Positions 23,901 through 58,800 of a stretch of 64,000 nucleotides of DNA are shown in pieces (the stretch's first letter is position 1; every line of letters starts with the position of its first letter). Source of the stretch: Amyelois transitella (taxonomy: Eukaryota; Arthropoda; Insecta; Lepidoptera; Pyralidae). The position numbers were made by a program, and so were the translations under genes. The notes beneath the pieces are model-generated. The model saw only the letters and a list, made by a program, of their open reading frames with translations, had not been told where the DNA came from and made no database searches. The stretch covers positions 4,670,001 to 4,734,000 of the forward strand of contig NC_083517.1 in the NCBI RefSeq assembly GCF_032362555.1, given 5' to 3'.

Positions 23901-26900
23901 GTTGTAAATAATTATATAATCTCGTTATATATTGTACCGTATGATTATTTTATTCAGGTTAAATAATAAAAATTAAATAATAGTCACAATGTACCTTATT
24001 TCTCAGAATATTATATTAGTTCTCCCCAGAGACAATAAGGGTAGAGTTCAGTTTATTAATATCAAGGTCAGCGCTAACTAGTCCAATCTTGTGACCACAA
24101 CTTCGTAAATTTGCTCTCATAAATCTTTCTGCTGTACTATAACATACCTAAATTTATGTTAGAATTTTGTGCTAGAATTTATGTGGGAAAATTAAATATA
24201 TCCCAAAGTGAAATAAATTATAATCTTTCTACGAATGATATTTTTCTTATGGTATTGCATAATAATCTGCTCTTTCGAAGATAAACAAGTCATATGAGTA
24301 TAAATATAATCTGAGCGTAAAAGCTACACTTACATACTTATAGAGTTGATCGCGTTTTTAAAAGAATTAAACAGAACAAAGAATAAAAAGCCTCTGAATG
24401 TAAAAAATCACGTAGGTACGAATTCGTTGACCGCTTCGACAGAAACATAATAAATATAAAATTTTCGTATTTGCATCAGCAAAATTACTGTGATTTGTGC
24501 GTAACTTATGTTTTTCGTAGCGTTTGTAACATGTCGTAGCTCGTACTTTTCTTTTAGACGTCGTAGCTTATGTTCATTTCGTAGACTATGAAGTAGATTT
24601 AGTGTTTCGTAGCTTTATTATTTCGTAAATTACTATCACAATTATAAATAGTTTCAAATTGCTATTGTAGTTTATGAAATATCTATTTAGTCGATTGTAA
24701 ATAATTTCGTAGTTTCTGAAATTGAATTTGTAGCATTTCATAGCTTAAGCATTAGTCACCTTTAAGATGATTATCAAAGTTTAGCAGATATATAATTTTT
24801 AAATTGCTCTACCACCGACGCTTTTCAATTGTAGTTTAAAGGACTTTTCAAATTGTAGTTTCATATCCACCAAAATGTTTTTCCAGAAGCCATTTTAGAT
24901 TTGTAGCCTTGAGACTAGTAAGTAGACAGTACAGTATTAAAATTTTAAATCTATCAATTTAAAACCTATTTTTGGCTACCGTTGTCGTTTGAATATTTAA
25001 TAAAAGACTTTGTATCATTTCATGATCAATAATACTGAAATAAAGCTTAATATAATAACCAGTACTAACCAACGAGTAGTAACCAACTTACTATAAAATA
25101 ATTTTTTAGGCAATGAATAACTGTTTTGCAAATTTTAATAAAAGAATCACCGTCACCGAGCAATCAGATCCATGCCCTCGCTGGAAACATTCAAACCTAT
25201 TTATGGTTCAATTGTATGAAAGAGGGAATAAACAGAACCCAGATATCTTGTATTTATGGATGACATGCTTACAGCGATGCGAAGTCTGATGGAGAGTGAA
25301 TACAGGAAATATTAATATTAGAGCAGTCTAAAGTTATCCAAAAAGACTCGTCTGGCGGTGCACAGAGACGTACTGGGGCACATGGCTTGGTTTTTGGGGT
25401 CACGTGGTGTCCTGCTTTTGTGTAACTCCCGATACGAGCCTTAAACCAATATAAAATAACATGGTTTCCATCAAAACAAAATGCTATTACTCATATCCTT
25501 ACAATTAAGTGCAAATTGACCAATGTCTATTGACCTCGCAACATATAACGGACCGGTACTCGGGTATATCATTAGTATCCACATATTTGATACACTTAAC
25601 GATACGAGGTAGACTTATAGTGCAATGACTGATTTGCTGATCCTCACAAAATTAATAATTTCCTGAGGTCTCATTCAAATTTGTGTTACTTGGCTTCTAG
25701 AAAAAATTGTCATTTATACCATTTAATATAATTATGTGTGATCAAAATAGCATGGATAGAAGATTATCTATGGTTGCGAATACAACAGATTTGGTCGTTG
25801 TTAACGTTGATGTGCCCGGCGTCTCCTGCGGCCAGCATGCAGTCTAGTACAGTAGAAGGTTCTTACTGGCGTATTAGCTGACGTCGTTGTTAACGTTATT
25901 CTGCGACCAGCATGTGCGTTTCCCACACGGACTTGTACTCGGAGTCATACGCTTATACTTCTGTTACATCAGAAGAACTTACTGGCGTAGTAGCCGACGT
26001 CGTTGTTAACGTTGATATTCCTGGCTTCTTCTGCGACCAGCATGTGCGTTTTCCACACGGACCTGTATTCGGAGCCATATGCTGGTACTAGCGTCTTGTA
26101 CAACAGAAGAACTTACTAGCGTAGTAGCCGACGTCGTTGTTAACGTTGATGTGTCCGGCGTCTTCTGCGGCCAGCATGTGTGTGTCCCACACGGATCGGT
26201 ACTCAGGGTCGTGCAGCACGTCGTACAGCGCGTCTGGCTCCACATCTTCGAATTCTGCCACCACCTAGCAACAAATGCAATATTTACTGAAAGTCTATCG
26301 ACAACATATGAACACACTATTGGTTGGTAGTAACACTTACCTATTTTTAAAGGTTTAAGTTATCACAGAGAGCAGTCGCCTAAACTACGGTTGACGTAAA
26401 ACGATGGTAGAAATAAAGAAGAATTAATGATTTTACTTTGAAGTGGGGCAGACGAGAGTCGCTCGGTTATCATATAATCCACTTTAGTATAGTTATCTAT
26501 GCCAATGAAATTCTACCTATACTAACTCCATGGATCAAACCCTTCTACACTTCACTTACTCCTTTGAACTCCTAATATTACCGTCAAAGATATGCCCTAT
26601 ACCTTTTTGTTATTAACTTTAAACAGTTAAAAGAAATGGATATAGTGTGGTTGCATATTTATTTATTTAAACTTTATGTTCTTACGTAAAATATACCTAC
26701 AACAGGTGGACTTAATGCCACAAGGCATTCTCAGCCAGTCAAACCTTTGGACCAAACACAAATTCATACTATATAAATAAACTACTATTTTTATATTATT
26801 ATGTGCTTTACCTTTATAACCTTTATATTTCACACGGTTTATTATGATCCCACCGTTAATATAACAGTAAACATTGAGTATGTTATAATATTTTACTTTA

Positions 26901-28675
26901 TGATATCTGCACTTTATGAGATTATAACTACAAAATCATCGTAAACGCCAGGCGGAGAAAATAAGTATCTAAACAAGGTCGGTTGGGAAATAAAGGTACA
27001 TTTTTGTTTAACATATATTTACCATCACGCCTGTTTTCCGCAGGGTTAGGTATAATGACTTTGGATTGATTAACACTTGCTATATTTGATCCCTACAGAC
27101 ATCTCGCTACTTTAACACTTATTACTCTTCTCATAATTGTTTCTTCTGTCTTTCTCTTCATAAATTGACGATAATGTCTACTCGTAACAGTTATCTCCCT
27201 TTTATGACATCTGCTTTGTCCATAAAATTTCAACAAGATCGGCGTAGTCCCCCTTTTACAGTCAGTTATGTCTCTTCTTTCTTATAAATTTGCCCTCATA
27301 TATTCGCTTAACTTTTCAACAACAGGTATCCTTTTCGATTTTGGTCACAAAAACCTCTATGAATCTAAACATACAATACAGTTACAGCAATATTCCTAAT
27401 CTTTTAATACACCACAACATACCTAATGTACAATTACGTTCACTTTATTTTCAACTATAATAAATTAAGTAGTTTTGTTTGCCATTTACCACCTTTTGTT
27501 TCATTTAAGATCATACAATATTTATTCTTTCATTTAACTTCTTTTTACTAGGTAGTTGTTGTTTTCGCCAGGCTATAATCATTGCAATTATCATCGTTCG
27601 TGAGAGGTTACGAAACGATGAAGGCTCTAACTAGGGCAATTCGATTAAAAATTCCTAAAGTGAAACTTTGCCAGGCTGATATAGGTAATATTATTACCCG
27701 AGTATCGCTTACATTCCCTCTTTACGGGATTCCTAGCTTTAATGCAATAGCTGAGAATGAAATCTTATCATCTTGAAAGGCAAGAGAGGGAATATATTCT
27801 TATCAATTCTTCCGATAAGTGATTTTAGTTTAATATTGACAGACCTGACTGAAACACATCCTACATCTGAAAACGCTTACATGTAGTTTATACAGTACCA
27901 ACTATTATTATTTCAGTTTTTATTCGAAGTCATGTTTCTTTGTGTTAATAAATGAATGTAGCTAGCTTATTACCATGAATACGTAATACCCTAAGTCATA
28001 AGAATCTTCCCCAATTTTCATTAGATCGTCGGACAGCATTACAAAAATCCTCCCTATCAATTCTTCTTTAGTGCACTACAGTCATGGTCTATAAACTTTC
28101 ACAGTTTGTCCTGGCATGCCAGGATATTCCATGGAATATCCCCATCATATAGGGTTTTCATTGAGAAATCCATCTGTGTTTGAATTCAATTTGCACACAA
28201 CAAAAAACAACAGAGGAAACGTTGTGGGAAGTTAACTGGAACTAGAAATAATTGACCATTGTTCCCGCAGCTCGGCTGATATTAAAATTAAAAACGAAAT
28301 AAAATAAGAGCAACTGGTGAAAATGTTACCAATCTTTAACAAACTCATTAAAACAAATGCTTGCCAGATACTCCCCCTCATTTATTATTAATGCTCGTGA
28401 AATTAAAATGCAAATCACACAGGTGAGGTTAGCCACACGTCTATAGAATTTGACATGAAAGGTTTATTTATCAAACAGACCTTGACCGTTCTGAGAGCTC
28501 CGTGTGCCGCATCCTCGGCCCACACTTTGATTCCGTCTTTCTCATACTCCAGTGTCCAGCCCTCATTGGAATCCAGGAGGGTTTTTAGGGTTTCGAAGTC
28601 GGAATCATCCGCGACGCGCGCCTCGCCGCGAGTCCAACCCGCGCCGCCCATTCGAGCGGAGACATCACAACACAA
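17926..28675 (-). CDS. STARD10: STARD10-like START-domain lipid-transfer protein
   Basis: Six exons, 28675-28481, 26264-26117, 21779-21647, 19804-19688, 18791-18641 and 18282-17926, join in phase to give 366 residues. Relatives bind and transfer phosphatidylcholine and phosphatidylethanolamine between membranes in the cytosol. The START domain occupies about residues 25-245. Family signatures are visible in order: GWTLEYEKDGIKVW, LYDVLHDPEYRSVWD, INVNNDVGYY, PLKNRDFVLQRSW, YPPRKGYVR, DPRGSLPAWLVN and WRHPEQVPPY. The last exon adds about 118 residues with a proline-rich start (PPPPQEP), an acidic stretch and a Lys/Arg-rich C-terminus (KKGKFYKLVKSMKNRRKS), a possible membrane-binding or phosphorylated tail. 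The ATG at 28675 lies in a CpG-rich patch; MGGAG nine codons later is an alternative start. Donors are variable (GTCTGT after exon 1, GTTCGT after exon 3). Decayed copies of exon 2 lie in intron 2. Confidence 0.9.
18792..21646. other. STARD10 introns 3 and 4 flanking exon 4
   Basis: Apart from exon 4 (19688-19804) and a family A element (19395-19665), this is AT-rich intron. An eroded lepidopteran element is suggested at about 20740-20870 by a GAAATTCCTACGGGAACG tail. Confidence 0.5.
19395..19665 (+). mobile_element. family A short interspersed element, diverged
   Basis: It keeps the block order of the family, including CGGATGTCGTAAAAGGTGAC, the ATTAAGCGATACAGCTGAAC block and a 3' TATGTATGTATGT run. 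It is more diverged than the copy at 34670. Confidence 0.7.
21780..25790. other. STARD10 intron 2, distal part
   Basis: No exon is recognised. The notable feature is about 24514-24745, where TCGTAG or TTGTAG motifs recur irregularly. The rest is AT-rich with no readable gene. Confidence 0.5.
25795..26116 (-). repeat. three decayed tandem copies of the STARD10 exon 2 tail
   Basis: Downstream of exon 2 in the direction of transcription are three partial copies of its 3' half. The shared core (plus-strand CGTTGTTAACGTT) starts at 26135 in the real exon and at 26001, 25885 and 25796 in the copies. The nearest copy, ending at 25983, keeps an open frame (YRSVWKTHMLVAEEARN, then INVNNDVGYYA) and a GTAAGT donor in the same phase. 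The middle copy, ending at 25867, has an internal deletion, stop codons and a GTAAGA donor. The farthest is truncated and has lost its donor. None keeps the 5' half of the exon or a good acceptor, so they are probably not exons. Confidence 0.85.
26265..28480. other. STARD10 intron 1
   Basis: AT-rich intron with no exon recognised. Two adjoining perfect palindromes lie at 28110-28140, about 340 bp into the intron from exon 1. Confidence 0.5.
28110..28140. repeat. two abutting perfect palindromes
   Basis: CCTGGCATGCCAGG (28110-28123) is followed directly by GATATTCCATGGAATATC (28123-28140), and the two share one G. Both are exact self-complements. This could be a dimeric protein-binding site or chance. 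Confidence 0.85.
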
Positions 28676-30183
28676 GTCGCGACTGCAATGTGGACGTCGG
28701 GGCTACCAGTCGATCACACGCGCATGCGTGAAATCCCCGCCATTTTTAAGGGATAGGGAACATGCACACACATCAGTAGCATAAACACAATTTTCAGATT
28801 TTTGTTTCAATTCAAACTCTTTATACCGTAAAAATACAAGCAAGTAAATTCGAAATGAATCTAGTTGGTACCGTGTGTCCTTACTTAAATACGTTTACAT
28901 TAACGTTCGTCAACTTAGTACGAAGGATCTTCTCTATGTTGCCGAGCTTCTATTGTATAGACTGGGAATTTGCCATTATTCATAAATACGTTAATGCTGA
29001 ATGGTTCTTGACTCTATGCCCATTTTTTCAATAGGCCTAAATGTTGGTTAGATGATAACAGTTATTTTTTTTATGTTAACAGCTACATTTGATAACAAAT
29101 ACATTAGTTGACTAGAAGACTCTAAACTCTAGGCTCTACTCTAATGCTTGAGACATAATTTGGGTTCACCAGGAATGTTGTACGGAAACATGCACACATT
29201 AAATTTTATAATTTAAAGGAGAAATCATGCCGTTTGAAATTTCCATTCCAAAGTAAATAATAATTTTATGCGAAAGTAAAGAATAGAATTGAAACTGGCA
29301 ATGATGTGCACACGGGTTTATAGCAGCTTTTAAGTTGCAATGCGGTTGTATGGTTAGTATTTAGCACGGCAGATATCATTTGTTTGACCCCTTTGAATAA
29401 GTTGATGCGCCTGTTGTCAATTCATTTGTAATAATGGTTTTTGCAACCGACTTTAAAAAAAAAGTGCTTAATTTGGCTCTGATTTTTATGTTTATTATGC
29501 GATTTATTTTTATATTTGAATGGTTTCATTGCTAACGTAGTCTCATAATTATTAATCAGGTCAAAATCTAATTCTGGGACAGTGACTTAGACAAAATGAT
29601 TAGGTAAATTTGGGTTACGCACTTACTTGGTACTTAATTTTGTTTTGATACATTGGACAATATTGGTCCTATATTATTTCGATTACAAAGAGGGTGCAAC
29701 CTTAAAAACGCCAGAAAAATGTCCGTGGGCCATGTGTTTTGTAACTAGACTTATTTAAAAAAGTAGATAGTAAACTACTATTTTCACAAAACTGCTTTTA
29801 CAAAGTTAGCGGCGAGTGTGACAATGTATGAAAAAGTAACTCAGTATTTGCGAATTATAAAAGTAAATAAAATCACTCTATCTAGATGATATTATGACGG
29901 ACGCATTTAATAACATTTATAGACTAGGACTAGGTTACATAAGCAATACAGAAATAATAAATACTTATAAGTTTAAAAATGTTTTATGTGATCGAATTAA
30001 CCATTTTAATAACCAACTGATTTTTTTTAAATTACTGTAATTTTATCGGATGATCTTTCTAAGTATACAATGCATAAAATTATGAACATTGTTATAATCC
30101 TTGGAAAAGCCTCAAGTTAACACATTTTACTTTAAATTTAACACCTAAGAAGACACAAAAACTTTTTTGATCTTAAAATTATT
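28676..30183. other. spacer between STARD10 and lysozyme
   Basis: The part next to 28675 is CpG-rich and probably contains the STARD10 promoter and 5' UTR. The remainder is AT-rich and holds the lysozyme 3' flank. No further gene is visible. Confidence 0.5.
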
Positions 30184-31482
30184 TCAACAACTACTAATGT
30201 CAGGAAGAGGTTTCCCGTCGCAGTGGTTGCGCCAGCCATACCACGCCATGAACCCGTGACGTTTGAATATCTTCTTCGCGCATTTGGAGGCTTTAGTGAT
30301 GTCGTCAGTCAGGAGCTCTGAATTAAAGGTAATAATTAATTGATTAAGTAATTGGTTTAATAACAGAGTGGTAGAGCCTTAGGCGTTAAGTCCGCCTACA
30401 TTTATTCTAATAAAGTTGAATAAGAAATTAAAATTAATTGCTTTCCAAATAATTGAAAAACGACAGAGGTTTTTGTTGAAATTTGTGTTTTTTTTTGTTA
30501 CCGTACCTGAAGATATCCTGAGAGACTTTAAAGGTTTAACCCCTTGGGAAACAAATGTAAAAGAACCAATGTATGTGTTTATTCATTCTATGTTAAGTTA
30601 ACTTTTTCTTGCTAAAGAAAGACGTCAATAATAATTGTGACTATGGATTCCGTTTCGAAATGTGACCTTCGTGTCTTGATCCCGTCTACCCCATAAGGGA
30701 TAGAGACGTGATATATCTACCCATAAATGTACTCACGGCTACAAGTAACGTTGCAGTCTTTCCCAGGGGTGCTAGTGTTGCTGCACCAGTACTTGTCGTT
30801 GATTTGGAAGAGGCCATAGTCCCGGGAGCCGTTCTTGTTCACCTTGCCGGTGATATCTGTCCGCCTCCTACTCTCATTCTCTACGAGGCAAACCCCTGGA
30901 TACAGATTATAAATTGAGCAGTTTTGCTTAAAATATGATATAATAGATGCATTGTCTAGTACTTTTAACAATGAATCACAAATAAAAAGACTGACGTTGG
31001 AAACAGGGCTATTTTTACATACATGCATATACAATCATGTCTCTATCCCTCACGGGGGAGACAGAGTCAACAGTCCCGAAAAGAATGAAAGGTCACGCTC
31101 AGCTGCATGGCCAAATGATAGAATTGAGATTCAATGGTGACAGTTTTCTAGCACATCGCCTAAAAGAAGAATCTTCAGTAAGTTATCTGTTAGTGTAGAT
31201 AAATAAACTAACTTATTGAATCACAAACTGCCCTGACCACTATAACGAAAAGATTATACCTACTCCAACTTGGACCAAGTCGTATCTTCTAACACAGTGC
31301 TTGGCAAGAATAAGTAAAGAAACAATAAATTTGTAAAAATAAAACAAAAAACACTTACAGTTCCTCATCTTGTCTTCCGGAAAGCCTTGCCTCCTCAGCT
31401 CTTTTACCAGGCCGCATCTCGTGAATGTCTTCGCCTGGGCTAAAGACACTACCACAAGGATAACCAAAATAATTTTCTGCAT
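30184..31482 (-). CDS. Lys: c-type lysozyme, complete
   Basis: Three exons, 31482-31359, 30895-30737 and 30317-30184, encode 138 residues, the usual length for moth c-type lysozymes. The enzyme hydrolyses the beta-1,4 bond of peptidoglycan and is a secreted haemolymph immune effector. A signal peptide of about 17 residues ends LAQA before KTFTRCGLV. The catalytic Glu is in WVCLVENES and the catalytic Asp in [11 protein letters not shown]. All eight conserved cysteines are present, ending [23 protein letters not shown] and PDISSC. Intron 1 splits the Trp codon of WVC and intron 2 follows CNVTCS, positions that fit insect lysozyme genes. A TATA box lies 63 bp upstream of the ATG. Intron 1 contains an inverted family A repeat. 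Confidence 0.96.
30668..30725 (+). repeat. family A repeat, 3' fragment
   Basis: GTCTACCCCATAAGGGATAG followed by AGACGTGA is the family A 3' signature. It abuts the end of lysozyme exon 2, within intron 2. Confidence 0.6.
31033..31165 (-). repeat. family A repeat, inverted 3' part
   Basis: The plus strand reads ATGTCTCTATCCCTCACGGG, GGAGACAGAGTCAACAGTC and GATAGAATTGAGATTCAA, the reverse complement of the family A 3' half. It lies in lysozyme intron 1. Confidence 0.7.
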
Positions 31483-31544
31483 ATTGAAACGTTACGCACT
31501 TGGATAGAAGTTTGTGAATGAACGATTGAACGCATTGAGTGATG

Positions 31545-31551
31545 TTTTATA
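31545..31551 (-). promoter_or_regulatory. lysozyme TATA box
   Basis: TATAAAA on the minus strand lies 63 bp upstream of the lysozyme ATG, with a plausible initiator (CACTCAA) about 25-30 bp downstream. About 30 bp farther upstream, GGGGAAGTCA (31580-31589, plus-strand reading) resembles but does not fully match an NF-kappaB/Relish site, which would suit an immune-inducible gene. Confidence 0.55.
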
Positions 31552-33024
31552 CTTTAATTAGGATTTAGGTATGTATTAAGGGGAAGTCATTTTAAAAATT
31601 TATGTTATATTGAAAGTTAAATAATTTGAATTATTAATTTTAATTAGCTACCAACTTGGTAATAATTTTTGTTGAAATCAAATCAACACTATTGTCATAA
31701 TCAAATAGAAATGTTCTAATTATTAACTACTCATATAAATTATAATCTGCCAAGTGCCACTAAAACTTAATGATCTTTTTAGGGGACTATCATTATTTCG
31801 ATTTCCATAACTGTATTATTTTATTACATTAACTGGTAGGTGAGGACAATTTGTCACATAGATATTTGTCTTGGGTTTCGCCTTCGTTGGAATTTTCAGA
31901 AAAAAAAGGCTTTTATTAATAAAGCGTTTTAGGCATGTCACTCCTGAAGATTTTTTTCATTTTCTTCGCAATGGGTGCCTAAAATTGTTTTTAGTTTATC
32001 CGTCAGGATGAACCTATTTGTACAACAAATGCAGTTGGACCTTATGTCTATTTGTTAATTAAATAAATAGTCACTCAGGTGGTTAATAAATACTGTCCTT
32101 TATCATTATCAAACAGAAAAAAATACAAACATACCACTAGAAATTGACTGATTACAATGATATCTATGACACGCAATGATTGTGATACCCATCATTTCAT
32201 CAATAAATAATGAACGATAAACATATCTACTTAATTCATAAGTATTAAAAAAAAAACTCATTTACCTATGAATTTCCGTTTCCGAATATTGGGTACCCGG
32301 TTAGGTTATTAAGTAAGTACGCATAATTTTTATTTTAAATATAAAAGTAATTATATATAAAATAGTTATTAGCTAATAATTATAGTATTTTAAAATGTTC
32401 AATTGTTAGAGAATTAATACCTATTGTTTTATAGCTAGCGATAATTTTTGTATCTCCCTTGTATAAGTTGTTCATAACATACTAGTTTTAAAAAATTAAG
32501 TCCTGACAATGCTACTGTAAATTAATTAATTTTCTTTATTTATAGTGCTTAATTAAACACAGATTATTTTCATTCAAATAATACGATAAGCTTTGCCAGT
32601 AACGTTTATCGTGTTATTTGAAAAAAAATACACAGTTGAAAATATTAAAGTTGTACGATATATCTTCCTCTTAATCCGTACATTGAATCGGGCAAAGGGA
32701 TTCCCCAAACCGTTACGGAATATGGGAGTACCAAGTCAATACTCTTTATAATATTTTATACAGTCGACAATATAAATACAAAGGAATATAAGGAAAAACT
32801 TACGGTATCTATGAAGGAATGTAGCCAGGCTTACCTATATCCAAAGACTGGATAAAAAACTCCACGCACGATTTTATGTTTTTACTAATTCGACATACTT
32901 AACTAATACAATTTCAAGCAGTAGGTGTAGGCTATTACTTTAAATTATGTGCTTCAATAATAAAAATTTAGAGGCGTTTTGGTATATTTATAGTATGGAA
33001 AGTTAGGTGTGCCAGAAAATGATG

Positions 33025-33110
33025 GAGTGAAAGAATTATGTAGGGATCGCGACAAGTGTAAAGATGTTGCCTCTGCGTACCCTTCCGGGAAAGAAAAAAG
33101 ATTTCATATA
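33025..33110 (+). repeat. family B repeat fragment
   Basis: GGGATCGCGACAAGTGTAAA, GATGTTGCCTCTGCGTACCC and a CCGGGAAAGAAA block match the family B order seen at 4895 and 11625. Confidence 0.55.
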
Positions 33111-34466
33111 TTCAAATAAATCATTCTTCAAATATGGAAAAAAATGTTTTTGATGATAGTCTAGCATGTAGTTAAAAACAGTGTGATGGTTTTCTTCCCG
33201 CGCATATTGGAAAAGTGAATCAACAGAAAAACATAGAAATCTTAGACCTCCACTTCTCATCCAAAAATAGAGTAGCTTGGGTATCTGCTAGGAATTCGCA
33301 CACACTGCTTATCCAACTGATAACTTACATGACCTAAGATTTTTATATCACTTATTAAATATAACTTTGTTTATGTTAATTACTTACTTATTTCATTTTC
33401 TCAAATACTAAATTAAACATACCTATCTTACTATCGTTCGCATTTTTTAATGCAACCAAAGGTATTGTAATTACCATCTACAACTTAAAGGTGGCGACCC
33501 GTTTTGCAAGTGCAGCTTTTTAAACTCAACTTTGTTAAATCTTCATCGACAAAATGCCATTCTCCTAAAAAAAAATCTAAATCCAAAAATTTGTCTTTAA
33601 TCATCATTAATTGGGCATTTTAAAAGCTAATAGGCATGTCGTCAAATCCTCTTTTAATTAGGTACCTACTTACACGTAAATTATAGTAAAAACTGAATGA
33701 ACACTTTCTTAAACAATAAAATTGTATTATCAAAATAATAGTACCTACTTTATAACAACGTAAGTGTTCAGAAAAGTAGGCCAATATGGTAAAATATGAA
33801 TCATATGTACTTTTTATATCGAGGCATTGTTAAATTGTGATAGCGGTAAATTCCCTTTGCAATTAAGACGACGTTTGTGCACAATCTAAGAAAGACAACA
33901 CTGTCTGACTGATTGACTAACATATCAACTCAAAGCCCAAACCAGCGTTTACTGTTATGACTAGAAATGGGTCTAAATTTGGAATTTGGCATGTAGGTTC
34001 AATACGTGCCGTTATTTGTGCAGGCTTAACTAAACAGTGAGTTTCTAGATTCTTAAAATATTATTTGGTTCCACTGTTTTTGTATGAAGGAAAGCTAAAT
34101 GTCAGAGTACCACAGATTTAGTATTCCAATTTCTAAGGTATTAGCTGTTCATTTATGATTAACTAAATTAATTACTTAGTAATAAAAGCCATGACCAACG
34201 CCATAATTAATTTATTCATTGCAAGTTACACGTCATTCCTTACTACAAACTTACTTAAAAAAAATCATGACAATAATAAGTAAAATTAACTTAAAATACA
34301 TAAGTATTTTTACTATGTCCTTTTTTTCGAATTTGTATGATATGACATTTTTAACTATTGAATTAAATTTTCAAAGATAGGATTTGAAATTCTAAAGTAA
34401 TTTGAGATAAGTAAGAACTTACTGAATTAAATCATAACATACTTGTATAAAAGAGTTGAGATTTTA

Positions 34467-36169
34467 TCATTCTTTTTGACAATGATAGCAGGCGCAGGAA
34501 ACTGCTGATTTGAATATTAAATTCCTTTCGCCGTCTAAACATAGCACTTTCACCGGTACCTAAAATAAAGAATTGATCGATTATCATCTAGACAACGTAC
34601 ACGGTTAAGATCCATACTACTCGTACAAGTACAATTATAAATGCAAAAGTAACTTTAATTAAATTAAAGTGTGCCGTGTGGTTCCCGGCACCAATACAAA
34701 AAAGAATAGGACCACTCCATCTCTTTCCCATGGAAGTCGTAAAAGGCGACTAAGGGATAGGCTAACAAACTTAGGGTTATTTTTAGGCGATGGGCTAGCA
34801 ACCTTTCACTATTTAAATCTCAATTCTATTATTAAGCCAAATAGCTGAACGTGGCCATTCAGTTTTTTCAAGACTGTTGGCTCTGTCTGCCCCGCAAGGG
34901 ATATAGACGTGACCATATATATGTATGTATGTTTAAATTACGAAGTGTGAAGAAAAAGATGAAAATCGCGCAAATTCCTAAAAATCCAAAAGTCACCTCA
35001 CCTCTCTGTTTGATTATTTTAATAACATGAAAGTACCTATTACATTGATGATTAAGTAGTTAAAATCAATCACACTTCAAACAAAAGCAGCTAAATTGTG
35101 CGTGAGTACATGAAAAGTAAAACTAAACAACATTTGCGTCTAATCTAGTAAGATTTTATCAGAGATCTATTGGTATTTTCATTCTAACTAGTTAATTATT
35201 TTTATATTAGGTACTTTTCTAGCTTTATTCCCTAGCCAAAATTAATCAAAAATCACATAAAGCCGGAAACGGTATCCAGTCAGCTACTATTAATATTCCA
35301 TTTATAAAAATACTTGTTATGGAATCAGATGTTACAAAAAACCTTTAAAAATCGCTCCCCAACACGACCTCACGTCTGACCCGAAGATTCCCGTATTTGC
35401 GGCAGCATTGCCTCTCTCGCAGATAAATTACCTACTTACATCCTCTGATTCCATGATATTGCAGCACTGCCCTAGTGATGTTACTGGATGACGTTTGAAA
35501 CCAAGCATAATGCTTGGCAGAGACCATGACTCGCAGAAACCCCTACACGCATTCGTCGTGATCTTAAACTGGACGCAGTCTGGTATGCTAATGTTTCTCG
35601 TATGGCCTGTTTATAATAAAATAAACTTTATATGGCTGTGCAATCTTTCTTATTAAAAAAAAAATAAATGAGCTAAGATACAATATACCTAAATTAAATT
35701 ATAGACATTAAGATTATGGCGTTTGAACAAAGCGGAGCTAGTACCTACCTCAGATAATAAAATTAATGATGATGTTAAGCCTTTAAACGAAAACACTTCC
35801 CACTGGTTAAGGCAAATAGATGGTTGATAATGGATATCCGAAAGTTAATACATTTCCAAAATTTCCTACATGAGTTGGGTAAAGTAAACAACGTTTATGT
35901 TACAAAAGTTTTGGCAACTCGTGTCAATTTGTGTCTGTGTTTATCGAATCTGCAATGCATTTCATACACATTCTGCCTTTGAAATTATGGGAATATGGTG
36001 TCCCCCTCTAATATTACTTCATCAAAAATGAGACAATTATACTGTAACAAAAAAAATCATTTACATTCAAGGAATACGCACCAATTCGATGACAACCAGG
36101 TTTCTTCCACGACTCAGTTGCAAGAATATGACTAACGGACGCAATTAACAACAAAAACCTTAGAAGCAT
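34467..36169 (-). CDS. GPA2: glycoprotein hormone alpha-2 subunit (thyrostimulin alpha), complete
   Basis: Three exons, 36169-36082, 35606-35440 and 34559-34467, encode 115 residues with matching phases (1, then 0). GPA2 pairs with GPB5 to form a thyrostimulin-type neurohormone that signals through an LGR-family receptor in insects. An N-terminal signal peptide (MLLRFLLLIASVSHILA) precedes WKKPGCHRIGHTRNISIPDC, then TTNACRGFCESWSLPS, GQCCNIME, VKVLCLDGERN and SAVSCACYHCQKE at the end. Ten cysteines in family spacing give the cystine knot, and NIS is a potential N-glycosylation site. A TATAAG-like element (about 36232-36238, minus strand) is about 65 bp upstream of the start. No GPB5 exon was found in the window. 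Confidence 0.95.
34670..34933 (+). mobile_element. family A short interspersed element, best-preserved copy
   Basis: It runs from GTGCCGTGTGGTTCCCGGCA through CACTCCATCTCTTTCCCATG, TCGTAAAAGGCGACTAAGGG, GCGATGGGCTAGCAACC and TGCCCCGCAAGGGATATAGA to a TATGTATGTATGT end. It serves as the reference copy for the others listed. It lies about 100 bp upstream of the end of GPA2 exon 3, in intron 2. Confidence 0.85.
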
Positions 36170-39623: not shown

Positions 39624-39659
39624 TATATTATGTACTGAGACATCGAACATTAAACATCC

Positions 39660-39665
39660 AATAAA
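39660..39665 (+). terminator. TTC8 polyadenylation signal
   Basis: AATAAA lies 37 bp past the TTC8 stop. An opposing AATAAA (39859-39854, minus strand) lies just past the DYNC2LI1 stop, so the two convergent transcripts probably end within about 200 bp of each other. Confidence 0.65.
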
Positions 39666-39853
39666 CAGTTTAATAAATATATTATTTTTTCATTAGTTTA
39701 TGATACTCTGTTTTGTCTTGTGGCTTCAAATTTCCATTCTCCTTAAATCATCATTTCGCCTTAAATTTCCATCCGCTACCTAGATGCCTACGAGAAATAG
39801 AAAATTGTAGGCACTTCCAAATTTTATATGAGAAATAATAAAGACTTCACAAA

Positions 39854-39859
39854 TTTATT
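39854..39859 (-). terminator. DYNC2LI1 polyadenylation signal
   Basis: The minus-strand hexamer AATAAA starts about 15 bp beyond the DYNC2LI1 stop codon at 39877-39875, close but usable. Confidence 0.55.
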
Positions 39860-39874
39860 ACACTTTTCAAAACA

Positions 39875-46800: not shown

Positions 46801-49800
46801 TGCACCGCTAGCTGAACACGGTATGGGTGAAATTCACTCTTCAATTGAAATTTACTTTTAAATTTATGAATTCTTGAAAAATTTGTAGTCGCCATTATTG
46901 TTCTCAACATATTATGAGATAACCTTTAGCACTGTATAATTCGTTAAGTTATGATAGAACATAGATGTGGCGTGTCAAGTGAAAAGGATTGTTTCTACCA
47001 TCGTGATGCTTATGTGAAGACAAAATACTTAAAAAATAATTTTGTTTGACCAGGTCTGATAGAAGAGCTGGTACGTCGCTTGGGAAGCACAGAAAGCAGC
47101 GAAGACAAATGTCTGTCACCATCTGTATCTACCACCGTTAGCTTGCTCTCCACTTTGTGCCGGGGTTCGTCTCAGATTACACATGTAAGTTCCGACAATA
47201 CATTTTAATTAATTATTGTATTATATAGTTCAACCCTACATTTTGAAATATAGATATATGTATATATTTAATTTTGTCATGAAATCTTGTTTTCCCCTAG
47301 GATTTGGTCCGCCTAGAGTTGTGCTCGGCAATAGAGACGGCCGTGCAAGCGGACGAGAGGTGGTGTCTGGAGTGCATGCGACTTGTTGACCTGTTGCTCG
47401 TGCTGCTGTGTGAAGGACGACACGCAATACAGACGTGAGTTACATTTACTGTTATTTAAGGCTGACTGACGCTCCATGTTAATAGTCAGGTAACCATAAT
47501 AGAGGAGAGGTAAGCGAGCAGTACCCAGATTAGAATTTCAATTCGGCAAAGTGCCCGATTTTCTTGACATTTACGTGACTTATTTTTAACCAATTTCAAA
47601 AAAGAGAAGGTTCTCATTGCAACTGTATTTTTGAAACTAACTGGATCTGTGTGATTTATCCATACTTAAATATAATATTAATTTACAGGGGTCTAAATCG
47701 TAATGGCGGCTCAGCGTCTGGCTCAAGCAGCGGGGGCGCTAGCGGCGAAGGTTCCAGCGGGGGTTCCACTCGAGGCGACAAGTCTCACCGACAACTCATA
47801 GACTGCATCCGAGGCAAAGACACCGATGCCTTGCTCGCGGCCGTCACGAGCGGCGCCGTCGACGTCAACTTCACCGACGATGTCGGTCAAACGCTGCTCA
47901 ACTGGGCGGCCGCTTTCGGAACTAAGGAGATGGTCGAGTTCTTATGCGAAAAGGGTGAGTTTTTATACAGATTTCTATGAATCACTGAGTAGTTTTTAAG
48001 AGCAAATTCTTGTTGAATTTTAAATTTATTCCATTTCCACTTTAAGCTATAAACACTTTGATATGCAACAGCTTAGTGCAACTGCACCACTCAAAGATGA
48101 AAAATTGGTGCATGACATTTTCAATTAGGTACTCCTACTAAGAAATGACGGAAACTAACTGTTTTGTGACTATAAGTAATGTTTAAAAAAATTTATTTCT
48201 TTATATGTTACATTTCGCTCAAATATACCATTTTTATTATAAGGTGCGGATGTAAACCGCGGTCAGCGTAGTTCTTCCTTACACTACGCGGCGTGTTTCG
48301 GTCGGCCGGCGATCGCCAAAGTGCTACTACGATACGGCGCCAACGCAGATCTGAGAGATGAGGACGGCAAGACACCGCTAGATAAAGCTAGAGAAAGACA
48401 CGATCAAGGTAATTTACAAATCTTTCAATCACACAGTATACATTTTCCTTTTTTAATACATACTGGACCTGTGTATATGCTCATCATTCTATTTTCAATT
48501 TTCTTTGCAACGATTTTTCTTTTTCGTTGTTAGGACACAGAGAAGTAGCAGCGATATTGCAATGTCCCGGAGAGTGGTTAGTGGTCGGCAATCACGACTC
48601 GCCGACATCATCAAACGAAGATGATTTTCCAGACACTGGTGATAAGGAAATGGCTGCTATTTATCTTGAGTAAGTTTTTTTTTTAATTTTGGTAGCTGAT
48701 TGACTTGGCCTTAAATATTAGTTTTAATGAATTATGGTAAAAAAAATTATGATTTTAAAAGTATCTTCCTTATCACTTCCCAATCGTCTAGTTACTATCC
48801 CAATAAGCGGCATTTTTGATATCCATTTAAAATTTCCAGACGTTTAGTGCCTCTGTTTTGCTCGCGCTACCTCGGCGCTGGCGGCGCTAGTGTGCGTCGC
48901 GCCTGTCTGTCTCTCGTCCGCAAGATGGTGCACTACGCGCCGTCCAGCCTGCTGCGTAGAGCGCCGCACACCACGCCCGCGCTACTGACGCAGCTCGTGG
49001 CCGCCGTGCTGGACAACGTGGTGAGTGTGACTAGTGTCGTGTGTCCACATTGTCGCTAGTGTGCGTCGCGCCTGTCTGTCTCTCGTCCGCAAGATGGTGC
49101 ACTACGCGCCGTCCAGCCTGCTGCGTAGAGCGCCGCACACCACGCCCGCGCTACTGACGCAGCTCGTGGCCGCCGTGCTGGACAACGTGGTGAGTGTGAC
49201 TAGTGTCGTGTGTCCACATTGTCGCTAGTGTGCGTCGCGCCTGTCTGTCTCTCGTCCGCAAGATGGTGCACTACGCGCCGTCCAGCCTGCTGCGTAGAGC
49301 GCCGCACACCACGCCCGCGCTACTGACGCAGCTCGTGGCCGCCGTGCTGGACAACGTGGTGAGTGTGACTAGTGTCGTGTGTCCACATTGTCGCTAGTGT
49401 GCGTCGCGCCTGTCTGTCTCTCGTCCGCAAGATGGTGCACTACGCGCCGTCCAGCCTGCTGCGTAGAGCGCCGCACACCACGCCCGCGCTACTGACGCAG
49501 CTCGTGGCCGCCGTGCTGGACAACGTGGTGAGTGTGACTAGTGTCGTGTGTCCACATTGTCGCTAGTGTGCGTCGCGCCTGTCTGTCTCTCGTCCGCAAG
49601 ATGGTGCACTACGCGCCGTCCAGCCTGCTGCGTAGAGCGCCGCACACCACGCCCGCGCTACTGACGCAGCTCGTGGCTGCCGTGCTGGACAACGTGGTGA
49701 GTGTGACTAGTGTCGTGTGTCCACATTGTCGCTAGTGTGCGTCGCGCCTGTCTGTCTCTCGTCCGCAAGATGGTGCACTACGCGCCGTCCAGCCTGCTGC

Positions 49801-52800
49801 GTAGAGCGCCGCACACCACGCTCGCGCTACTGACGCAGCTCGTGGCCGCCGTGCTGGACAACGTGGTGAGTGTGACTAGTGTCGTGTGTCCACATTGTCG
49901 CTAGTGTGCGTCGCGCCTGTCTGTCTCTCGTCCGCAAGATGGTGCACTACGCGCCGTCCAGCCTGCTGCGTAGAGCGCCGCACACCACGCCCGCGCTACT
50001 GACGCAGCTCGTGGCTGCCGTGCTGGACAACGTGGTGAGTGTGACTAGTGTCGTGTGTACACATTGTCGCTAGTGTGCGTCGCGCCTGTCTGTCTCTCGT
50101 CCGCAAGATGGTGCACTACGCGCCGCCGTCCAGACGTGCTATACAGCATTCCCTTTCTAATTATGTAAGTGGGTCCATTGAAAGGCGTATTGTTCGCATG
50201 TAACAAAGTTCGTGAATACCGTCCAGTGGTCGTCATACATACATTTCATTACATAGCAATGGTTTCATAGTCTATGCTTATTATATTATGTATGGACGTT
50301 TGTAATCATCTGTGCCTGCAGCTTGTTTCAAAACATAGAGGTAAAGAGCAATTAAGTCTTGTTCTCTCACCTATTATATTTTGTAGGTATTTAGTAAGAA
50401 ACTTGTTTCTGATCTATGAGATAAGACGTGTGAATTAATACGAGGTATACGCACATGAACTTAAAGCAACTAATGGTTGAAATTGTGTTGAAATTTTAAT
50501 AAAAACAAGGTACTTTAGGGACGGTCAGTCGTTGGATGAAGATAAAGGATTACGACAAAAGCTTTCCTTCTAACAAAATAATGAGTTCAAAGTAAAAGTA
50601 ATTTAACCATTACAGTACAGTACTACTGCTTTTATAAATCGCATCGGCAATAATCGACGGCGAAGAATTGCACAACCTACCGCCATTTCAAATCGAATGA
50701 AAACAATTAACGACCATAAACATTAAAACTTATCAATAATAAAACAATACAAAAAGAAAATGTCTCCTGCTATCTCGCTCATAATAGTAGTACAATAGCA
50801 GACTTATATGGGTTTTTCGTCACTCAGTTCGCGGGAAGAAATGGCCCGCTCTGAAAGGCTCAAATATTTTCGCGCCATAAAAAATTTGACATGGGCGTAA
50901 CTTATAAAAGTGGTAAGACTGTAACCAAATGTTTTATATAAAGACCTTTATACTAGCATAATATGTTGTGATGTGCAATCAGGGCGAGATCGGCGTGCGG
51001 CGCTGTCCGCCGCGGTACCTGCGCTCCCGCTATATTCGCCCCCCAGCGGTAATGTTCCGATGGTGTGATGATTCCTATGAGTGTGCTCACCCAATGTGCG
51101 GCTCTAATACTAGCCGTGTATGCGGGCGGATCTCTTGTATATTGTTCCTCTATAAGTTCATGTAACATTTGACCAATTTGAGTTTCCATTCGACTCGATT
51201 CAGATGTTATTTGTCGCGATCGTGTTGTCATTGGACCCGAGATTGATCACTTACAATTACAGACTTATCATTTATCATCTTGTTTCAGTATAAAGATCAT
51301 CAATCTGTGTAATTTGTCCCGTATATATTTATTAATTATTTATTTATATCAACATGGCTTTGGCGTTTACAGTAACAAACCAATAAAATCGAGCGATACG
51401 CCCGTATCGATTTCACCCTCACATTTTTAAAGAGTTACCTACTCGTAAAATTGTGTTGAATGTATCTACGCACATTGTTGAGGCGTGTATTTTGTTCTAT
51501 GCCTATTGTTAGAGCCGCAGGACCGACAGACGAAGACGTACGGATGTTTTCACATGATTTATACTTATTGGAAAAATTTAAAAATGGTTTGAAAATTAAC
51601 GTGTCCAAATTTCATGACGCCATTTTAATATATCCGTACGGAGACGCCGAAGTAATGCCCGGCTGACAATATAGCTAAACTCTTCCAGTTAATGTAGTCA
51701 CATTTCAGTACTAATACTTAATTGTCGATATTTTTATTTCTTCTTAATTACATTGCTATTTGCTTTCCAATACATCAACATTTTTTTGTAAAGACATCAC
51801 ACCATCGAAAATTACTTGCATCAACCGTCCTGTTTGTGTTTTATGTTTTAATGTCCTTATTAATTTTCATGTGTTTTTTTTTTACCGTTTTGTTTGTGTA
51901 CTTATATTTTTTATCAACAGGTACAGATAACAAATAAAGTGTTTTGTGCACAAAATTATGTTAATACATATTACACAGCTAAAGAGATCTAGCAAGTCTT
52001 TCTTGTTCTAGTTTTAGAATTAGTTATTGTGTACATGTTCTAAGGCGATGGTCATTTGTTTTTGTGTGTGACCCAAATTGTGTCATCTGCCAGAAGTGAT
52101 GAAAGTAAGAAGTGAGTCATAGATATACCTAATAACAAAATTTTATTTTCTTATGCAAAATTCAACTTTCCAAAAATATTCTTAGTACTGTATTGGTTGC
52201 TCACAGCTATTAGATTTTAGTTTATTTCGGTGATTATGATTTAGTGTGATAATAACTAAAAATTGAAAATTAGGACGACGACGATGGTCACCTCATCGTA
52301 CTTGGCATTGCTGAAGAACTAATGGTGAAGGCTGCCGAAATATATCTGGAGCAGTTTGCAAGGCTTGGCGTCTTCAGCAAGGTGGAAGCGTTGGCCTCGG
52401 AGCCCGCCTCGCAAGTTTCGTCTGATGGAGAAACTAGCATTGCAGGTAAGATATGATGTGTTTGAATCAAAGTGGCCAGCTTTGAAAAAGAAAAAAGCTA
52501 TTCTATTAAAGAGATGAGGTCAATTGGTTCTCCCCGACCTCCTGGGTCATTGTCAATCAATGAGGATGTAACCGGGATTGTTACGAGAAGGATGAGAAGC
52601 ATTTCTAAATTTTGTACCAATATTTGTTCTTTTAAATTTTTCTTTTTCATTGACTGTAGATTTAATTCATGTGGCAAAACGTTTTACTGTCAAGTTTTTC
52701 GATGCCGTACCTGTGCTGTGCAACCAATTGCACCTCATTTCAGTGTCGTTTTCCTTTATTTATAAATCTGAAATGTTGTTTAAAGTCCCTCAATGGCAAT

Positions 52801-55800
52801 TTAAATTACCATGAACCCTATCAGGAGGGCTCCACATCTCCAGATTTCGAATCGGTCTCCTAGCGATGCTAACGAGAAAGTTATATTTGGCTCTTCACAG
52901 GTAGTAGTGAAGACGCAACATGCCTATCCCATGGCGTGGCGTACTCTTGGGGCGAGTGGTCCCTGTGCCGCGGACGCGACGCTCTATACGTGTGGAGCGA
53001 CACCGCCGCGCTCGAACTCAGTACCGGCAGCAACGGGTGGTTCCGGTTCCTCCTGGACGGCAAGCTGGCCACAATGTACTCTAGTGGCAGCCCCGAGCAT
53101 CAGACTGATAATACCGGTTTGTATTACATAGCTAAAGGTACTTGTGGGGTATATAATACTTTGTGTCGTCTGCGACAATAACGCTGATTATCAAACCAAA
53201 TGCTGTCGTCGCTTGCCGTGGTAAATGCGGCTTGCTTTCGGTCGTAGCAGATCGCATACTTAATTATAACGTTTATAAATAGTCTTGCCTTAAAAGTCGT
53301 TATAGATATTTTAAACTTAACATTTCAGAAAATCGTGGAGAATTCATCGACAAATTGCAAAGAGCTAGAGCTTCCGTGAAGAATGTAGTACCTCAACCCA
53401 TACTATCTAAGCCAGGGACAACTAGACTTATCCTCGGAAATTGGGCATTATCCTGCAAGAAGTACGTACTTTGAAATTTGGAACACGTGCTGTGAAGTAG
53501 TTTTTATTACTGAACTTATATAACATTTCTATGTAATTTTTTTTTAGGGAGAAAGAATTGCAAATACACAATACAGATGGCCAGCAGCAAACGACAATAC
53601 TGAAAGAAGATCTGTCTGGATTTATTTTCGAATCCAATCGCGGCACTAAGCATACATTTACAGCTGAAACATTTTTATGTAAGAATTTAACTTTCTTTTC
53701 TTTTTTCTATATGACTTCGGTCTTTTCAGTTTTAAAATTTTAAATTTCAATGTGTAGGTCCGGAGCTCGCCACAGGTTGGACAAACCGTCGCCCTGTGAC
53801 TTCAGATTGCGCGACGTCCAATCAAAATAGATCTCGTTCATCTGCAAAAGCTGAAGCCCTCAAAGCACAGGTATTTTATATAGTTTACTAGTTTATGTAC
53901 CTACTTTATCGTACAGATGTAGCAGCAGCGCGCGACCACCACTAGTGACGATGGTCGGTGGTCCGTCTGCACCAAGCCTTAGGCTCCTTGTTTCGGTATC
54001 ACTTCAAACAAAGTAGTGTTATAGTTTTTTAAAAATGATGGGATTTTAACCTAATTAGCTACTACCTACTACCTACCTACTTACCTGTTTCTACATAACA
54101 AAGCTTGTATTGCAGGTTCGATCGCGCGCCCGAGCCCTGTTCTCCCGGCACCTGAGCCACGCGGCGACGCGCCAGCCGCGGCCGCCCGTGGCGCGCCTGC
54201 GCGTGCTGCTGGCCAGGACGCAGCGCCTCGCCACGCAGCCCACAAGTCAGTGCTCACACGTGACGGCTCTCAGTATCGCGTCGTCAATTCATATGATTTC
54301 ACATGCAGCAAGCAAAAAAAGCTGAAGCAAATCTCGTACATAACTAACTAACATGTAATGCAACAAACACTTGCTTGTGGATTGTTTTACATTGACGTTT
54401 TAATCGCATACTTCAAGAGAATCACTGACAAATGTGTGTAGAGCTGTACAGTATGTACAAATCAATCGGTCGATTCATCTGTTAGAGGATAACCGTTTTG
54501 CAGCTGATGACGAGTCTTAAAAACGTATTTATATATTTATTTTTTCCTAAAACAGAAGATTGGCAGGCGGAACTTCGCGAGTCACTGGACCAGCTGACAG
54601 AACTATTGTGCGGGGACGAACTGCTGTCCGCGTACGAATTGCAGTCATCCGGCCTCGCCCCTTCTTTGTTACAAGTGCTTTCGCCGCAGCCCAATGGTAA
54701 GAACGATAAATTTTATGTTACAAAATAAAAAAAGAGTAAAAAAAATAATTAACATTGATTTTTACAAGCCAGAAAATTAATGTTTTTAAAAATAGTGCTG
54801 CCAGAGATTTTTCTTGTCTTAACGGCTGTAATTATATTTAAATCTAAATATTTAAAATTATATTTTACACAGATGCACCAGGACAGGCCAGCGAACGCGA
54901 GCGTGTGGTCCGAGAATGGGTTTCCAGCGATTCCGGCCGAGCGGGCGCTACGCTCGCGTCCAGGCTTGTTGGCGTACTAGAAAGCGTTGAGCGATTGCCC
55001 GTGCTCGCCCCTCCCGGCGACGCCCCGCCCCCCACCTCAGCCGCCTCCCTCCATCACCTCGCCAAACGGATACGGTAAATTTCAAGCTCATTATTTAATA
55101 GCCTAACGTAAAGTACCCAATGTCCGACAGACCACCAATGATCGACACATAAAAAGTAAAATAAAAAAAGGATATACTAATGTTGTGTATTTGAACGTAA
55201 ACGAAGCATAAGTTATACACAAGGTTCATCCAGCTCTCATTGCAAGTGTCACTTTCTACATTCGGTTATTTTGATAAAAAATGGTTGAGCTTTAAATATC
55301 GACCGGCAGAAGTTTTTAACGGAAAGCCACTTTTATTAGTGAAATCACTAAGGAGGTGAGTAAGGTTTATTGCTCATAACTTTTTTCGGTTTAAAGCTAC
55401 CATTTGAAAATTTTAGGCTGGGTGCACGATTAATGGACCGTTAAATATTGGGTGTCCATAAATAGAACATGTCGATTACTAGATTTCGATTATTGGAACA
55501 TGTCGAAAACCGGTTGTCGGTAAATGGATTTCTGCAGTCGAATATTAGGCCAAAAATACCATAAATCTATATTGGTATATCTTGTAAATTTTTATATCAC
55601 ATTCATTTCTACTTTAATATATCATGCAAAATACCCTAAAATTTTACTCAAAACTTCAAAATATGATAAAATAATAAAAATAAAACAAATATTGTAAAAA
55701 TACTAGAGTTCGTGCGTAAAAGTGTCGATGATTGGGGGTTTTACCGTACGTACATTTCATAGCATTCATACTGGAGAGTGTAGAGCGTCTGGTTGTGCTC

Positions 55801-58800
55801 GCCCATCCCGGCGCTGCCTTCCTTCATCACCTCACTAAATGGCTACAGTAAATCATCTTACAGGCGTACAGCCCACGATTCACGGAAGATTTTAAACGAT
55901 ACCGGTTTGTGGCGTACCGCCTTTCTCCATCACCTCGCTAAACGCCTAGGGTATAAAAATTATACAAGTGTGAAGCCCATGCTTCACAACAGAAGTCAAG
56001 CAAGAGAGGCGCTTTGGAGAGATTGACCTAGTTAGGGGCGGGATTGGAGAGCCTCCGTAGCCTTATTCCCGCCTACATCATCTTATCAAACGTATATGGT
56101 AAATACGAGTATCACAAACATGTAACCCAATATGGTTTGTGGCATGGTAAAGTTCTTTTTTTAAAATCTTACTTGATACAGTTGTTTATAACTATTTACG
56201 TTTTCCTAAGACTCCGAGTGGAACGAGCGAACGAGGACTCCAACGAAGATTCAGGTTCGAACAACGGCAACAATGCCGGTCGTAGCTTGAAAGTGGAAGC
56301 GTTGACGACGGTGCGCCAGTTGGAGAGGTTCCTGGCGAAGTCCGTGGCGCGCCAGTGGTACGACATGGACCGTGCTACGTTCAACTTCACGCAGAAAATC
56401 AAAGCCGAGGCGCCTATCACTTTTAATTATGACGTAAGCAAAGATTTTTTTATATTATTGTTTTTATTTTAAATATAGGTAAGATGTAGTATTAAGGGCT
56501 TCTGTCTGTATTATTTTTAATAGCCAAAGTTATGATTGATGTATAAAGTAAATCAGCATGAAAATATAACTGTTTATATGCTTCCTCTGTAGAATATCTA
56601 GTAAATATATATTTTTTTTCTTTAAGCACGATTTCGACGAGAACGGCCTCATATATTTCATTGGCACCAACGGCGGTTCCTGCGAATGGGTCAACCCCGG
56701 TGCTCATAATCTAATCTGCGTGTGGTCTTCAGACGGAAAACAGTTGCCATATGGCCGCGTCGAGGATGTCCTATCACGGTCACCAGAACCACTGAACGTT
56801 CATACAAATGATGATAGACGAGCCTTTATAGCTATGGATCTTGGAGTACATATTGTGCCCACAGCTTATACGATGCGTCACGCGCGTGGATATGGCCGTT
56901 CGGCACTGAGGAACTGGCTATTCCAAGTAAGTTATGAGAATATTCCATGAAACATTCTTTATCGCTTCTTTACTCGTTTTCTGTTTCAACGTTCTTTGCT
57001 GATTTGCTTCAGAAGCCGGGTTTAGATTTCCTCCTTTCACTTTTGATCGTCTGCATCGTAAACTTTACATCTTATAGAGTCTCTAGCGTGGTAAAGTTAA
57101 GATGTCTTCGCATTATGTTCATTAGGTTATTTTCTGATAATTCAATGCCTTATTACGGAAAATCTTTATACGAATGTTTACTTTTAGATGTCAATGGACG
57201 GTGTGACATGGAGCACGTTACTGGCTCACAACGACGAGCAAGCGTTACAAGAACCAGGCAGCACGGCCACTTGGAGACTGAGAGCAGACGCTCCATACCG
57301 CTACCTACGCATACAACAAAACGGGAAGAACGCAAGTGGACAGAACCACTACCTATCTCTGTCTGGGTTCGAGATTTACGGCAAGGTGAGTGAGATAGAA
57401 CAATACCAGCAAGCGCTACAAGAGCCGGGTAGCAAAGCTCACATAGCATAAGTTTTTTTTTAAATTAACTGATCATAGGACCATCGAGATAACTAACTGA
57501 TACTGGATAAAGTTTAAAAAAGCTTAGTGAAATTGTGTTATTTTCCAGACACTCCTTTTATTAGTTTAGTTCAATAGTAGAAAAATAGAAACTGTTCTTT
57601 CCTGCAGAGATATTAGCCTTCACCAATATAATTCAATTCCTTCGTCGTTATGGCTGTTAGGCTCTGGAATTCACTTCCCGAGTCCATCAGGACATCCCCA
57701 AGTCGTTCTAGTTTCAAATCGCGGGTATACGGGTTTTTCTTAAGTCGTGAGGGTATTTAATATCGCCTTTTCACTCATTTCGGTAATATGCACCTATTTA
57801 TTTATGTATATTGTTTATCTATTGTAGTTTTTATTTATGTATAGGTATTATAATTATGTTATTTTATATTTTGTGTAGGTATAAATATATTTATTTAGTT
57901 TAACCCCACATTAAGTTATCTGTAAGACCCAATGGTTAATAGATATGTATTTTGTGCAATGAAGTTTAAATAAATAATGTTTCGTCGTAGGTGGTGGCCG
58001 TAGTAGAAACTGGTCCCAAGCAATGCGGCGCGACCAATCACGTGACGTCCGTGCAGAGCGGCGGCGCGGCGGCGGGCGCGCGCGCGCGGCGCTGGTCGCG
58101 CGGCGCGCGCGGGCTGTGCGCCGGCGCCAGGGTGGTGCGCGGCGCCGACTGGAAGTGGAGGGACCAAGACGGACCGCAACCCGCAGTCGGCACAGTCACT
58201 TCGGATTTACACAACGGATGGGTCGATGTCAAGTTAGTATTACTTCATTTTTCGTAACCGTAACCTAACAGTTTTTGAATCATGAATGATCATATGAAGA
58301 CGCACAAACTTGAGTTTATATACTCGTATTTTTGATGTAGAACTTAGTTTAAATATAATTAAGATGAGAATATTTTCTACAGATGGGACCATGGCGGTCG
58401 CAACTCGTACAGAATGGGCGCTGAAGGCAAATACGACCTCAAAGTGGTGAGCGGCGCGGGAGTGGTGGGCGGCGCGGGGCCGGCGGCTGCGGAGACGGCC
58501 CGCGCCGGCCGCAAGAGCCACTCCACGCCCAGCCTGCCTGACGCCACTGCTGTGGATCACCAGGTAATGGTCTAAACGATGTGAAAGTGACGACAATTCT
58601 CTAGGTGAAAAGAGCATGGCTGAAACTTTGTCACGGTAGAGCCATCAACACTGAAGCCGCTTCCTAAGCCACAAACTAGTGTATTTTCGAAAAAGACTCG
58701 ATTGACAAAAATGTTAACTTTTATATATATGACTCTAAAATTTACTTGTGCAGATATCCGTGGCATCAACGGAACAGGCATCATCCGCAGACAACATCTC

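Follow-up and report, generated by a model that had tools for sequence, protein, structure and literature searches.

Sense-orientation copies of the 3′ ends of coding exons, many of them with the 5′ splice site attached, lie in the introns directly downstream of those exons in the genome of Amyelois transitella. Where they can be read, the copies share a common geometry; they have arisen repeatedly at one and the same exon, are biased toward the sense strand and the downstream side, and in several introns are amplified into arrays. We regard them as probably the product of recurrent, still-amplifying tandem duplications across the exon 3′ boundary, in which the first donor would be the one used, selection would favour the donor side and exon ends would be duplicated to excess. 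The window from which the analysis extends is a stretch of 64,000 nucleotides (C13:4670001-4734000) in a genome of 327 Mb in 33 contigs.

Exon-tail copies in the window

The exons of the window were modelled by hand in five genes, which appear to be HECTD1, STARD10, BBS8, a lysozyme and DYNC2LI1. In this model, the 35 HECTD1 exons inside the window share one open frame, which stays single with the copies sitting within its introns. The 48 donors of the five models were scanned by comparing sense exon tails with introns, with shuffled sequences as the null, and a tail match in the downstream intron at z>5 was found for 3/48 donors (z 50.7, 42.4 and 11.5; 0/100 shuffles reached the score). No match at this threshold was obtained for antisense tails in the downstream intron (0/48), for tails in the upstream intron (0/43, both strands) or for exon heads in the upstream intron (0/48, both strands). 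Exon heads matched the downstream intron in 2/43 sense comparisons, namely HECTD1 exon 11 and the exon 22 fragment, and in 0/43 antisense comparisons. As three control matches reached z 4-5 (the STARD10 exon 3 head upstream at 4.8, the HECTD1 exon 6 tail upstream at 4.5 and the HECTD1 exon 13 tail antisense at 4.1), only strong matches were counted. A self-comparison of the window (E up to 0.05) placed all direct repeats less than 2 kb apart in the three arrays. It also revealed the paired direct repeats 34676-34941/37116-37385 and 41518-41780/44251-44494, which are probably transposable elements.

The youngest array follows HECTD1 exon 11 (Table 1), where the unit consists of the last 136 nt of the exon, the donor and 33 nt of intron, and is repeated 7.3 times over 48885-50125, the exon's own unit included, at 99% identity. 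Full copies are 99-100% identical to the exon and the truncated copy 93%, and the donor 9-mer GTGGTGAGT recurs exactly six times downstream. Exon-proximal units 1-4 are identical, with variants confined to distal units 5-7. This exon with its unit, the sole one searched genome-wide, gave at least 8 matches, 8/8 of them within its own array, and the dispersal to other loci that characterizes a transposable element or introner was thus not found for it. Intron 11 of HECTD1 also contains a GC-rich, AG/GT-flanked open segment of 66 nt in phase 0 (50983-51048, + strand), a possible cassette exon.

The STARD10 array is of intermediate age and the HECTD1 exon 19 copies are old, with GT retained at the donor place in 3/3 of the latter. 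The three sense exon-tail arrays described in the earlier note, at STARD10 exon 2 and HECTD1 exons 11 and 19, are thus real, as is the donor-less exon fragment in HECTD1 intron 22, and the difference in age that it ascribed to them is borne out by identities of 99-100% for the young HECTD1 exon 11 copies, 73-96% at STARD10 and 63-84% at HECTD1 exon 19.

Table 1. Source exons, copies and arrays. Positions without a contig are relative to the window; unit counts include the exon's own unit.
Feature	Position	Strand	Units, identity or basis
HECTD1 exon 11 (gave rise to the young array)	48840..49020	+	hand model
HECTD1 exon 11 array, 169-bp unit	48885..50140	+	seven full units, then a truncated one
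STARD10 exon 2 (gave rise to the intermediate array)	26117..26264	-	hand model, open frame
STARD10 intron 2 copies, whole set	25794..26070	-	
STARD10 intron 2 copy extending past donor	25907-26070	-	84%
STARD10 intron 2 copy extending past donor	25842-25946	-	73%
STARD10 intron 2 truncated copy	25794-25839	-	96%
HECTD1 exon 19 (gave rise to the old copies)	54873..55074	+	hand model
HECTD1 exon 19 tail, three old copies	55769-55853, 55917-55953, 56072-56104	+	63-84%
HECTD1 exon 22	57188..57385	+	hand model
HECTD1 intron 22, 30-bp copy of exon 22 interior (57234-57263)	57405..57434	+	83%, no donor
Ten exons with curated downstream copies in 264 kb	HECTD1 exons 11, 19, 22, 64958 and 66269; STARD10 exon 2; -24778, -19497, -70450, -21174		
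Acceptor-side copy of the exon at -95064	4613-5109 of extracted flank piece		
Myosin exon	C28		17 full 150-bp units
Second myosin exon	C28		three older copies
Kinesin exon	C2, 262-3940 of extracted piece		23.9 units of 162 bp
UCH exon	C16		three units of 147 bp
SNF-transporter exon	C24		copies present
Exon of a second HECT gene	C13		5.2 units of 122 bp

Downstream bias and recurrence beyond the window

The scan was widened to the window plus 100 kb on either side (264 kb). Flank exons were predicted by a simple model for which the 53 exons of the window served as the training set. At the chosen cut-off it recovered 36/43 internal exons of this set exactly among 59 predictions in total; some of the 69 flank exons are perhaps wrong. 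After manual trimming of the merged predictions 64958-65274 and 66269-66620, the final set comprised 122 exons. Before curation, matches at z>5 were obtained for 12/119 exons sense downstream, 2/119 antisense downstream, 2/121 sense upstream and 0/121 antisense upstream (p=0.006 for sense downstream against upstream), with the antisense downstream matches belonging to -7976 and to the exon at 64958 (z 5.2). Curation dropped -7976, since its repeat matched in antisense too, -58841, with a z of 5.0, and the upstream match at 83451, judged to be a coding repeat. The curated set has downstream copies at 10/119 exons and upstream copies at 1/121 (Fisher p=0.005), including two HECTD1 exons that lie beyond the window. 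The sole upstream case in the 264 kb is the exon at -95064, the head of which is copied with its acceptor into the upstream intron at 77% identity.

Tandem arrays with a period of 40-500 were found by TRF at three places in the 264 kb, 3/3 on exon ends; the 116 exons included in the count occupy 24.5 of the 264 kb. Among the short-distance repeats inspected from a BLAST comparison of the same region, three possible old non-exonic arrays were seen, at -67693, -59805 and 144494. In 50 kb of C4 with 17 predicted exons, no TRF array of this period and no clear exon-tail case were found, with one exon scoring z 6.0 downstream.

Six profile searches of the whole genome with hand-picked families (PF00063, PF00225, PF00209, PF00443, PF00501 and PF00632) gave at least 89, 109, at least 96, 72, at least 22 and 59 match rows, respectively, from searches in which 65/125, 88/88, 82/107, 67/67, 14/89 and 45/45 candidates were scored. 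The match tables were inspected visually for another hit to the same profile end closely downstream. At least six more exons with copies were confirmed by sequence, two on C28 and one each on C2, C13, C16 and C24, and the exact donor 9-mer repeats 23 times in the kinesin intron and 16 times in a myosin intron. The kinesin unit includes a CATA microsatellite. Read by eye, the intronic portion of the C16 unit looks similar to a dispersed repeat, and the joint of this unit shares the microhomology ATAAGCT, to which no claim is attached. Among the matches listed, no case was seen for PF00501, and no upstream head copies in any of the six families. Two suspects, C10:4747720 and C24:1351674, hold no repeat in their sequence, and the six-exon count leaves out the suspects C11:2352015/2351454, C1:3530479/3530825, C17:5965348 and C20:9381575. 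No per-exon rate is drawn from this survey, as the families were hand-picked and the tables show in-frame copies alone.

Over all curated cases, downstream exceeds upstream by 16:1 (sign test, p=0.0003), and by 12:1 (p=0.003) when the window's four cases are removed and the six exons elsewhere in the genome are counted, the latter being the fairer figure because the arrays were the reason for choosing the window. An excess over the antisense and upstream controls that the earlier note had named is seen in the 264 kb. The outcome that it had named against itself, a scan with no excess elsewhere, came out the opposite way within the limited sample covered, which consists of the contiguous 264 kb, 50 kb of C4 that lacked clear cases, and the six families.

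Several properties were compared between exons with and without copies. No clear effect was obtained for exon GC (median 0.56 in cases versus 0.53 in controls, p=0.125), for the length of the exon (p=0.45) or for the score of its donor (p=0.087, a rough value as the end of exon 64958 was taken two bases too far). Slippage and splicing-linked repair, suggested as causes in the earlier note, gained no support from the analysis. The first 60 intron bases are richer in GC in cases (0.47 versus 0.32, p=0.001), although the first copy often lies within those bases. Intron length, for which an effect is expected under exon definition, gave p=0.12 (6 versus 44 introns).

Unit geometry and amplification

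The 13 exons with a readable unit have units of 122-204 bp with a median of 151, a range that leaves out two old cases whose first offsets are 105 and 210. The first copy is placeable in 12/16 curated exons, in all of which the unit begins within the exon, so that the copies have no acceptor of their own; the copy starts 16-78 nt past the donor and the intron part of the unit is 15-77 nt (by eye for the second HECT gene). For the other 4/16 exons the unit is not readable and the first detectable match lies at +70, +134, +138 and +695. At 10/16 exons at least one copy, old copies included, carries GT at the donor place by eye, and at 6/16 the copies are interior or truncated alone or have lost the donor. 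A 3′-truncated final copy ends the arrays of HECTD1 exon 11, STARD10, the second HECT gene and the first C28 myosin exon. The anchoring of arrays at the exon edge with the donor, as first described, accordingly holds for many copies, with some being interior or 3′-truncated.

Within the six HECTD1 and STARD10 introns that hold copies, the GT-bearing copies are in the three longest (3253, 1136 and 4337 nt) and the copies without GT in the three shortest (one of 605 nt and two of about 260 nt), a hint of the pattern that would be predicted if copy donors were tolerated only under exon-first recognition. When the best-scoring frame is followed beyond the first donor, a stop codon appears within 171 nt in 14/15 exons tested (the exon of the second HECT gene being outside this set), which makes use of the original donor likely. 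The exception is the kinesin array, where the frame of the exon remains open over 3,971 nt beyond this donor.

The process appears to be a continuing one, as had been suggested, with duplications of differing age at a single exon and, in HECTD1 exon 11, variants in the distal copies alone. At the second C28 myosin exon, a copy 89% like the exon sits between copies of 73% and 67%, and at least two duplication events must therefore have occurred. Minisatellite or VNTR arrays consist of head-to-tail units that are homogenised and form higher-order patterns. Head-to-tail repetition of two or more units is found here as 7.3 x 169 bp, 23.9 x 162 bp and 5.2 x 122 bp, and higher-order patterning is seen at the first C28 myosin exon, where units 10-13 and 14-17 share one pattern as a four-unit repeat, and in the second HECT gene, where units alternate. 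The features common to both are the head-to-tail order, homogenisation and higher-order patterning, whereas the present unit holds the end of a coding exon and, mostly, a donor.

Origin of the copies and their relation to known duplications

In the explanation that we favour, local tandem duplications, mostly of 120-200 bp and thus roughly of nucleosome length, would begin within a coding exon and stop a little way beyond its 5′ splice site. As the exon's own donor would keep first place, everything after it would be removable with the intron, so that the duplications would be harmless and could persist. The copies would then decay, or amplify in satellite fashion. Duplications on the acceptor side would instead put the wrong 3′ splice site first and be mostly purged, and the donor-side bias may thus stem from selection against acceptor-side copies. 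Such a filter would not be absolute, as the acceptor-side copy at -95064 exists and the human CBS 844ins68 duplication is tolerated, according to the available text of PMC2630376. The filter alone does not explain the distribution, since duplications that fall evenly would be expected to make intron-only and intergenic arrays far commoner than observed, and the scarcity of comparably young arrays away from exons suggests either a hotspot or retention. Exon 3′ ends may be a mutational hotspot in this genome, with a process at the donor region that repeatedly duplicates some 150 bp of the exon's tail into the beginning of the intron, a reading that we put forward tentatively as a quite conceivable one. 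Exonic chromatin, RNA-DNA hybrids or transcription-coupled repair would be candidate causes, and the products would be exon-tail satellites in which as many as two dozen 5′ splice sites are identical.

The most serious alternative, which we nevertheless consider unlikely, is that there is no hotspot and that duplications fall evenly, those of exon tails being easier to spot because the exon is conserved, while in a plain intron both partners of the duplication decay. A number of the copies, at 63-76%, are old and detectable solely through exon conservation, and the three inspected non-exonic repeats could be old arrays of this kind, but the youngest arrays need no such anchor and still lie at exon ends in the TRF search, albeit with a small sample of three. 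Retention of the copies for a function, for instance to delay or control splicing as decoy 5′ splice sites, is an improbable account; the persistence of GT even in old copies would fit it, but interior, truncated or donor-less copies are all that six exons have, and identities of 63-100% are as in neutral debris. Very improbable is an origin in decayed whole-exon duplications or mutually exclusive exons. Adjacent full-length exon copies of such appearance do occur in the muscle myosin gene on C12, where four adjacent exon matches resemble mutually exclusive exons (C12:10167187-10168555), but the readable copies begin inside the exon without an acceptor, and decay should strike upstream copies equally often. 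The least probable explanation is assembly error, for which near-identical arrays of 0.6-3.8 kb would be the expected setting, this being where assemblers fail; diverged copies at many exons are incompatible with it and the young arrays hold ordered variants.

The recurrent donor-side duplications favoured here have partial counterparts in known systems. Tandem exon duplications and mutually exclusive exons likewise repeat exon sequence in sense within one gene, whereas the readable copies described here have no acceptor. In the available text of PMC2630376, human CBS 844ins68 is a short duplication of an exon-intron junction that is removed by splicing, and it is thus junction-spanning like the present arrays; it differs as a single 68-bp event in one gene on the acceptor side (intron 7/exon 8), while the arrays are on the donor side, in many genes and of up to 23.9 units. 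Tandem duplication of exonic sequence is also a published source of new introns, tolerated by splicing, with a case in potato crossing one intron-exon boundary, but these duplications create a new intron, as far as the text available extends (PMC2891723, PMC4974935), whereas the present copies sit inside an intron and appear to add none. No description of a genome-wide donor-side class of such duplications was found in the open literature, a scope that leaves subscription journals mostly outside. The finding is best filed as a new aspect of a known event: single boundary-crossing duplications are already known, and their recurrence across many genes on the donor side is what is added.

The 23 and 16 exact authentic donor 9-mers lined up behind single exons constitute a natural test of choice among identical splice sites, in which the donor chosen by the spliceosome, and its fidelity, would be readable from ordinary RNA-seq of Amyelois transitella. 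According to PMC9225289, splice sites pair over the exon where introns are long and over the intron where they are short, which predicts use of the first donor in the former setting and of the last donor in the latter. If exon ends are truly duplication hotspots, they would be a source of intron growth and new splice sites.
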